Origin: Gemmatimonadaceae bacterium
Lineage (GTDB): Bacteria; Gemmatimonadota; Gemmatimonadetes; Gemmatimonadales; Gemmatimonadaceae
NCBI GenBank assembly: GCA_025934775.1
Contig: JAICWO010000012.1
Span: forward strand, 62,001-126,000
Length of the DNA: 64,000 bases
Direction: 5' to 3'
A model generated the notes under the pieces. It made no database searches. It saw only the letters and a list, made by a program, of their open reading frames with translations, and was not told where the DNA came from. Below are positions 22,579 to 22,779 of this stretch, in pieces (the stretch's first letter is position 1; each line of letters begins with the position of its first letter). The translations under genes and the position numbers were made by a program.

Positions 22579-22779
22579 ATGACGCAGAACGACAACAAGG
22601 ACTTCGAGTGCCGGCAGTGCGGCGCACACTTCGACTCGCGTGACGATCTCGATCGCCACAACCGCTCGCAGCATTCGGCACAGGCCGGCTCATCGAACCT
22701 CGGCTCGTCATCCAACCAGAACTCCTCCAACATCGACGGCGGATCGTCGTCGTCGGATCGCAACAGCAGCAATCGCTGA
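22579..22779 (+). CDS. Small C2H2 zinc-finger protein
   Basis: 66 residues. The N-terminal half is one classical C2H2 finger: C11, C14, H27 and H32 in [19 protein letters not shown], matching F-x-C-x2-C-x3-F-x5-L-x2-H-x4-H with all hydrophobic positions filled. The rest is a Ser/Asn/Gln-rich, probably disordered tail ([14 protein letters not shown] and [10 protein letters not shown]). A G-rich SD-like stretch precedes the ATG. It could bind DNA, RNA or protein. Classical-spacing fingers are uncommon in bacteria; it differs from the Ros/MucR type. Confidence 0.75.

Follow-up and report, generated by a model that had tools for sequence, protein, structure and literature searches.

A 2013 paper describes classical C2H2 zinc fingers as eukaryotic in essence, with few in archaea and practically none in bacteria (PMC3541406). 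The figures quoted there are 0.003% of bacterial genes or proteins and 489 UniProt examples, and no bacterial member of the AFV1p06-like group was found in that study (PMC3541406). Here, we describe a gene for a 66-amino acid (aa) protein with a single classical C2H2 finger, located in a 64,000-nucleotide stretch from a Gemmatimonadaceae bacterium (hereafter the window; positions 62,001 to 126,000 of contig JAICWO010000012.1, assembly GCA_025934775.1). The window sits in a 189-kb contig, and the genome comprises 4.88 Mb in 47 contigs. The protein is an uncommon bacterial counterpart of the tiny single-C2H2 proteins already known in haloarchaea, which are its nearest kind; we call it uncommon and not wholly new because these haloarchaeal fingers are known, and bacterial C2H2 proteins were scarce in the 2013 paper.

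Two of the haloarchaeal proteins, both encoded on plasmids, are WP_332101098.1 (36 aa, annotated as C2H2-type), in which the single finger makes up most of the protein, and WP_255152777.1 (40 aa, annotated as hypothetical), which also has a single classical C2H2 finger and fewer than 70 aa. The window protein likewise has one finger in fewer than 70 aa, the finger being about one third of its length. The haloarchaeal proteins share a His-rich start with many of the bacterial proteins described below; they differ in being archaeal and in lacking a Ser/Asn tail. WP_332101098.1 matched our family profile with 96% probability over 29 columns at 41% identity, a match too short to tell common descent. 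AFV1p06 of Acidianus filamentous virus 1, compared by its published description only, is reported as a 59-aa protein with a single finger of classical fold and disordered ends; however, it is viral, has Glu instead of His as the fourth ligand, and binds DNA with a preference for GC-rich sequence (PMC3541406). The C(P)XCG micro-proteins of Haloferax volcanii are described as zinc proteins with one domain and at most 70 aa (PMC11241148; PMC6562870), and most deletion mutants made are reported to have a phenotype under some condition (PMC11241148). They carry two C(P)XCG motifs (C4), whereas the window protein has one CxxC and two His.

Ros is described as a 142-aa protein with a 9-residue Cys-His spacer, an H-x3-H-H arrangement with three His, and a larger domain (PMC9779718). 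The initial annotation had set Ros-type fingers apart by a longer spacing; the relation is reversed, since the Ros spacer is 9 residues and that of the classical finger 12. Ros/MucR proteins resemble the window protein in being bacterial and in a Cys2His2 zinc site (predicted in our case), but the spacer of 9 and the larger domain separate them. ROS_MUCR was absent among the Pfam matches of the window protein at E-values up to 1, and on sequence grounds the protein is not Ros/MucR. Eukaryotic C2H2 fingers (PF00096) agree with it in spacing, core residues, and predicted fold; they occur in tandem arrays, whereas the window protein is a single acidic finger. Tandem-finger C2H2 transcription factors carry several fingers on TGEKP-type linkers, and membership in that group was ruled out by the one finger, the missing linker, and the acidic charge. 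The rarity of such fingers, implied by the initial annotation, has to be qualified: tiny single-C2H2 proteins occur on haloarchaeal plasmids, and two Salmonella plasmid records carry the annotation "C2H2-type zinc finger protein". One Salmonella enterica conjugative IncFII plasmid (CP074271.1, L050:799-1581) encodes a 260-aa C2H2 protein with six tandem fingers and TGERPY-like linkers that is strikingly similar to animal zinc-finger proteins. No Gemmatimonadota C2H2 protein was described in the titles or abstract openings that our literature searches returned.

The translated protein contains F9-x-C11-x2-C14-x3-F18-x5-L24-x2-H27-x4-H32, with the ligand spacing C-x2-C-x12-H-x4-H in a single finger. 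All consensus positions of the classical finger are thus present in a tiny protein, as first claimed, and the 66-aa product is predicted to bind zinc. In the six frames of the window, the strict motif appears a single time, and it was absent from 60 simulated 64-kb sequences of the same first-order composition. However, the motif alone is weak proof, because its looser form (C-x2-4-C-x12-H-x3-5-H) is expected 0.63 times per window.

We searched for homologues in genomes of Gemmatimonadota, to which all whole-genome searches were confined. With the single sequence as query, nine places were found in 6 of 40 genomes, own genome included and all within the genus; a profile returned nine places in 6 of 6 genus genomes, again including its own. 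The family-wide profile search gave 12 places in 9 of 179 genomes, with members outside the genus in G334 (genus g42) and in G129 and G409 (g37). Matches were found in 5 of 345 genomes of the class, and credible ones in 7 of 395 of the phylum. The family, class, and phylum searches scored the best 35, 18, and 21 candidates per genome, respectively, so that further members are possible. Matches in G351, G461, G306, and G026, among the 11 of 395 phylum genomes with a match at E 0.01, were dropped, as one or both Cys were absent on translation. A narrow-pattern scan of genome contigs recovered four loci, every one of them in a record under the name Gemmatimonadaceae or Gemmatimonadetes. The initial annotation had proposed a search of related genomes and counted an absence of homologues, together with one of translation evidence, against itself; homologues are present, and they settle that 22579-22779 is a genuine small gene.

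Two scans of viral contigs yielded 7 and 4 stretches fitting the pattern and no confirmed relative. A viral origin was rejected, with only three phage matches at E 5 to 9 and no relative confirmed in these scans. The best matches in PHROGs had E-values of 0.0054 (G129) and 0.035 (window protein). NCBIfam gave no match above its curated cut-off (best NF047912, 16.5 bits vs 37), and Pfam had no family above its curated cut-off for the window protein or six other members. No RNA families or tRNAs were detected in the window.

Eleven members, the window's included, were studied in alignments; the twelfth, from G409, was translated only. The frame upstream of the ATG is open for more than 200 codons, and the equivalent Met is the start of the alignment in all 11 members; we read the gene as independently started. 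A hexamer resembling a ribosome-binding site (RBS), with at least 4/6 matches to AGGAGG and 3-9 nt before the ATG, precedes the gene in 11/11; the mean score for 1439 ATGs across the window was 3.24, and 0 of 20,000 resampled sets matched the members' total. The ratio of nonsynonymous to synonymous differences (pN/pS) over the finger was below 1 in 55/55 pairs (0.12 to 0.83); these pairs are non-independent, and pS (0.42-0.86) is near saturation. The comparison of coding sequences shows the gene to be conserved and under purifying selection at the protein level. The codon score is only moderately distinctive: its level was reached by 107 of 1750 wrong-frame pieces, and 109 of 350 right-frame pieces did not exceed it.

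An AlphaFold2 model built from nine rows has a predicted local distance difference test (pLDDT) value of about 91 in the finger, with two short strands or bridges plus a helix, and an overall mean of 66. From residue 31 onward, the means of 10-residue blocks are 47-62, and the tail (residues 33-66) is probably disordered. Of the Ser/Asn-rich disordered tail in the initial annotation, the composition is thus confirmed (Table 1), and the disorder is probable only, resting on a low-confidence prediction. The 50 Foldseek matches listed were mostly C2H2 fingers, none of those with an E-value below 0.001. Both Cys, both His, Asp19, Ser20, and Leu24 are invariant in 11/11 members, and a Gly-Ala-His is conserved at 90% or more. 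The Cys/His spacing and the core Leu are kept throughout, and the core aromatic F18 is replaced by Leu in 3/11. Each of the 11 proteins has a single finger and no TGEKP-type linker, is net negative (isoelectric point 4.5-6.5), and is net acidic within the finger itself.

The window protein scored 19.8 bits against Pfam zf-C2H2 (PF00096), whose curated cut-off is 25.2, and the six other members scanned were likewise below it. A PF00096 scan of 30 relative genomes gave 0 matches, which fits with the window finger scoring under the cut-off. This result shows only the blindness of the standard model to these fingers.

Within the family, we sorted the proteins by eye on their tails, without a tree, into two types. 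Type A comprises the proteins of the window, G005, G003, G002, and G334, with tails in which Ser/Asn/Gly/Gln make up 57-88% (the G005 tail being acidic). Type B, from G000 (the window's own genome), G001, G002, G004, and G005, has net-acidic tails containing A-E-P-[MVI]-G-[NT]-E. The proteins of G129 and G409 are more distant. Both types occur in G000, G002, and G005, A only in G003, and B only in G001 and G004; some of these assemblies are incomplete. The existence of two tail types suggests two partners. An N-terminal M-x-H-[TS]-H-E is present in 5/5 type B and 3/5 type A proteins; this is the His-rich start shared with the haloarchaeal proteins. The His at residue 3 in type B (L002, L006-L009) and in the type A proteins of L004, L005, and L018 would resemble an N-terminal copper/nickel-binding motif, provided that the Met is retained.

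The reading that we favour, and to which we give an even chance of being right, is that of a small, zinc-stabilised protein that acts mainly as an adaptor binding, or modulating, a partner protein. A single zinc ion would hold the product in one beta-beta-alpha C2H2 finger, from which a polar, flexible tail extends; a partner would probably be contacted through the helix of the finger and the invariant Asp-Ser, and the tail may be a linker or solubility segment. We infer this role because every member has one finger only, is net acidic, and lacks a basic flank; a lone acidic finger without a basic flank would be a poor stand-alone reader of DNA, and an adaptor is therefore favoured. Several observations weigh against it. 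Arg or Lys occupies helix position 6 in 8/11 members, where, in the numbering that we assume, it would presumably allow base contact. The acidic charge argues against DNA binding only indirectly, and in vitro DNA binding is reported for AFV1p06, the single finger of an archaeal virus (PMC3541406). Some predicted archaeal zinc proteins are reported not to have bound zinc (PMC11241148). Synteny is partial: immediately beside the gene, the window has one flank only in common with G005 and one with G003, while in G002 and G334 the surroundings of the type A gene yielded no neighbour known from the window.

The features of the locus are collected in Table 1. The GTG start of the divergent Old Yellow Enzyme (OYE) family gene is our choice, and this gene is the sole PF00724 match in G000. 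The region between it and the finger gene may hold both promoters; no sigma-70-like promoter was found. The hairpin just past the stop is not a standard intrinsic terminator, as it lacks a U-tract, and no terminator-like site was found there. A strong post-stop hairpin is present in 7/11 members (for these, no more than 1 of 19-20 background places was equally stable) and not in the other 4. Downstream, the long N-terminal part of the 833-aa protein appears by eye to be membrane-spanning, and its orthologue in G005 is 76% conserved.

Table 1. Coordinates of the finger gene and of the features around it in the window.
Feature	Position	Strand	Evidence or remark
Flavin mononucleotide (FMN)-dependent NADH:flavin oxidoreductase, OYE family	21373..22440	-	divergent neighbour; PF00724 E 6e-66 on 21376-22446 (two codons longer)
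Region between the divergent OYE-like gene (if GTG 22440 is the start) and the finger gene, 138 bp	22441..22578	.	
RBS-like hexamer, 8 nt before ATG	22565..22570	+	4/6 to AGGAGG
Coding sequence of the 66-aa single-finger protein, type A	22579..22779	+	ATG at 22579, TGA ending 22779; homologues, pN/pS, codon score
Classical C2H2 finger, residues F9-H32	22603..22674	+	motif; AlphaFold2 pLDDT ~91 at residues 11-30, helix 21-32
Ser/Asn/Gly/Gln-rich tail, residues 33-66, probably disordered	22675..22776	+	composition 77% S/N/G/Q; low pLDDT
Strong hairpin just past the stop, no U-tract	22787..22833	+	-33.5 kcal/mol (50-base piece); 0/20 background places as stable
833-aa protein with C-terminal spermine/spermidine-synthase domain	22995..25496	+	downstream neighbour

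We compared the genes around the loci, called by longest open reading frame (ORF) and codon score. At the type A locus of G005, a spermine-synthase-domain gene is also downstream, and at that of G003, an OYE-family gene is also divergent; more genes are shared around both. In G003 (L026), the next gene as called is a 537-aa ORF with an over-long start overlapping the OYE gene, and OYE there rests on tblastn. No adjacent gene is common to any pair of type B loci; these loci are linked only by paralogous proteins of kinase type encoded further from the gene. The window encodes a 394-aa protein at 13815-14999 (-), some 7.6 kb away from the type A gene; in the same genome, a homologue with 59% identity is the immediate neighbour of the type B gene (L024:9621-10862), and at the type A locus of G003, one with 79% lies just past the OYE gene (L026:10724-12334). 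The L024 and L026 copies had no Pfam match at E 1e-5. In G002 (L030:7571-9254 region), the type B gene begins 12 nt past the stop of a nitrite/sulfite reductase gene and has a good RBS, which suggests that the two form an operon. The type B gene of G004 lies 69 nt after a nitroreductase gene; co-transcription with the upstream enzyme gene is plausible in G002 and G004. In G000, the type B gene is divergent to a luciferase-like gene, with 78 nt between them on the assumption that the longest ORF of the luciferase-like gene is correct.

The arrangement with OYE raises the alternative of a stand-alone DNA-binding regulator, for example, of the divergent promoter region that it shares with the OYE gene, or of a nucleoid-type DNA binder. 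The fold is that of the eukaryotic DNA-binding fingers, the gene is divergent to an enzyme gene in G000 and G003, and the 59-aa viral finger discussed above sets a precedent for DNA binding (PMC3541406). However, there is one finger only, finger and protein are net acidic in all 11 members, no divergent OYE gene turned up around the finger gene of G005, G002, or G334, and type B loci have no conserved adjacent gene. We consider such a regulator unlikely, without being far-fetched.

A metal- or redox-responsive protein seems a doubtful prospect, the Cys2His2 site, with the His-rich start of many members, buffering zinc or releasing it on oxidative or electrophile attack alongside flavin/siroheme reductases. 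With the neighbour on either side defined as the closest called ORF that reaches 90 aa (22 slots at 11 loci), flavin/siroheme enzymes fill 6/22 slots at 6/11 loci, or 5/20 independent slots: OYE (window and G003 orthologue), a luciferase-like monooxygenase, a nitroreductase, a PNPOx-like protein, and the nitrite/sulfite reductase. Among independent genes one or two places further out, the count is 0/17 (Fisher one-sided 0.036 vs 5/20), although these outer genes were hand-picked, small low-scoring ORFs were skipped, and part of the slots was scanned. Of the five, four lie divergent or co-directional to the finger gene, at distances of 12, 69, 78, and 138 nt, and the five enzyme families total 9 genes in G000 (leaving OYE aside, the four other genomes counted have 6 to 11). 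On the other hand, the flavin/siroheme category was picked post hoc, and oxidoreductases in general are at 5/20 vs 2/17 (Fisher 0.28). The PNPOx case is convergent, OYE is about 300 bp away in G003, and no enzyme family recurs except via orthology. The flavin/siroheme neighbours are thus a weak lead to a partner.

Joining this lead to the adaptor reading gives a long shot: a bacterial lineage would have evolved or acquired two branches of tiny, acidic proteins with a classical C2H2 finger, whose activity as partners depends on zinc or redox state and which are co-expressed with enzymes using flavin or siroheme (OYE, luciferase-like monooxygenase, nitroreductase, nitrite/sulfite reductase). If true, a eukaryote-style finger would serve bacteria as a redox-linked protein adaptor, not as a reader of DNA.

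An RNA- or ribosome-associated small zinc protein has a slim chance at best. The small prokaryotic zinc-finger proteins of known function, few in number, are reported to include subunits of RNA polymerase and the ribosome (PMC6562870), and two Pyrococcus ribosome chains are among the Foldseek matches listed (E 1.4 and 1.9, not significant). The protein is acidic, however, and its patchy distribution within the family is unlike that of core translation proteins. That the ORF is spurious, or the assembly contaminated with eukaryotic DNA, is disfavoured to the point of being scarcely credible: high G+C yields long chance ORFs in the window, the loose motif is expected 0.63 times per window by chance, and the codon usage is only moderately distinctive, but the members come from assemblies of two separate projects, lie inside bacterial neighbourhoods, are under purifying selection, and carry an RBS-like signal ahead of the start.

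The family offers a minimal one-domain system for asking what role a lone acidic finger has in a bacterium. A conserved bacterial family with paralogues lies under the Pfam cut-off, and routine annotation can miss such fingers.
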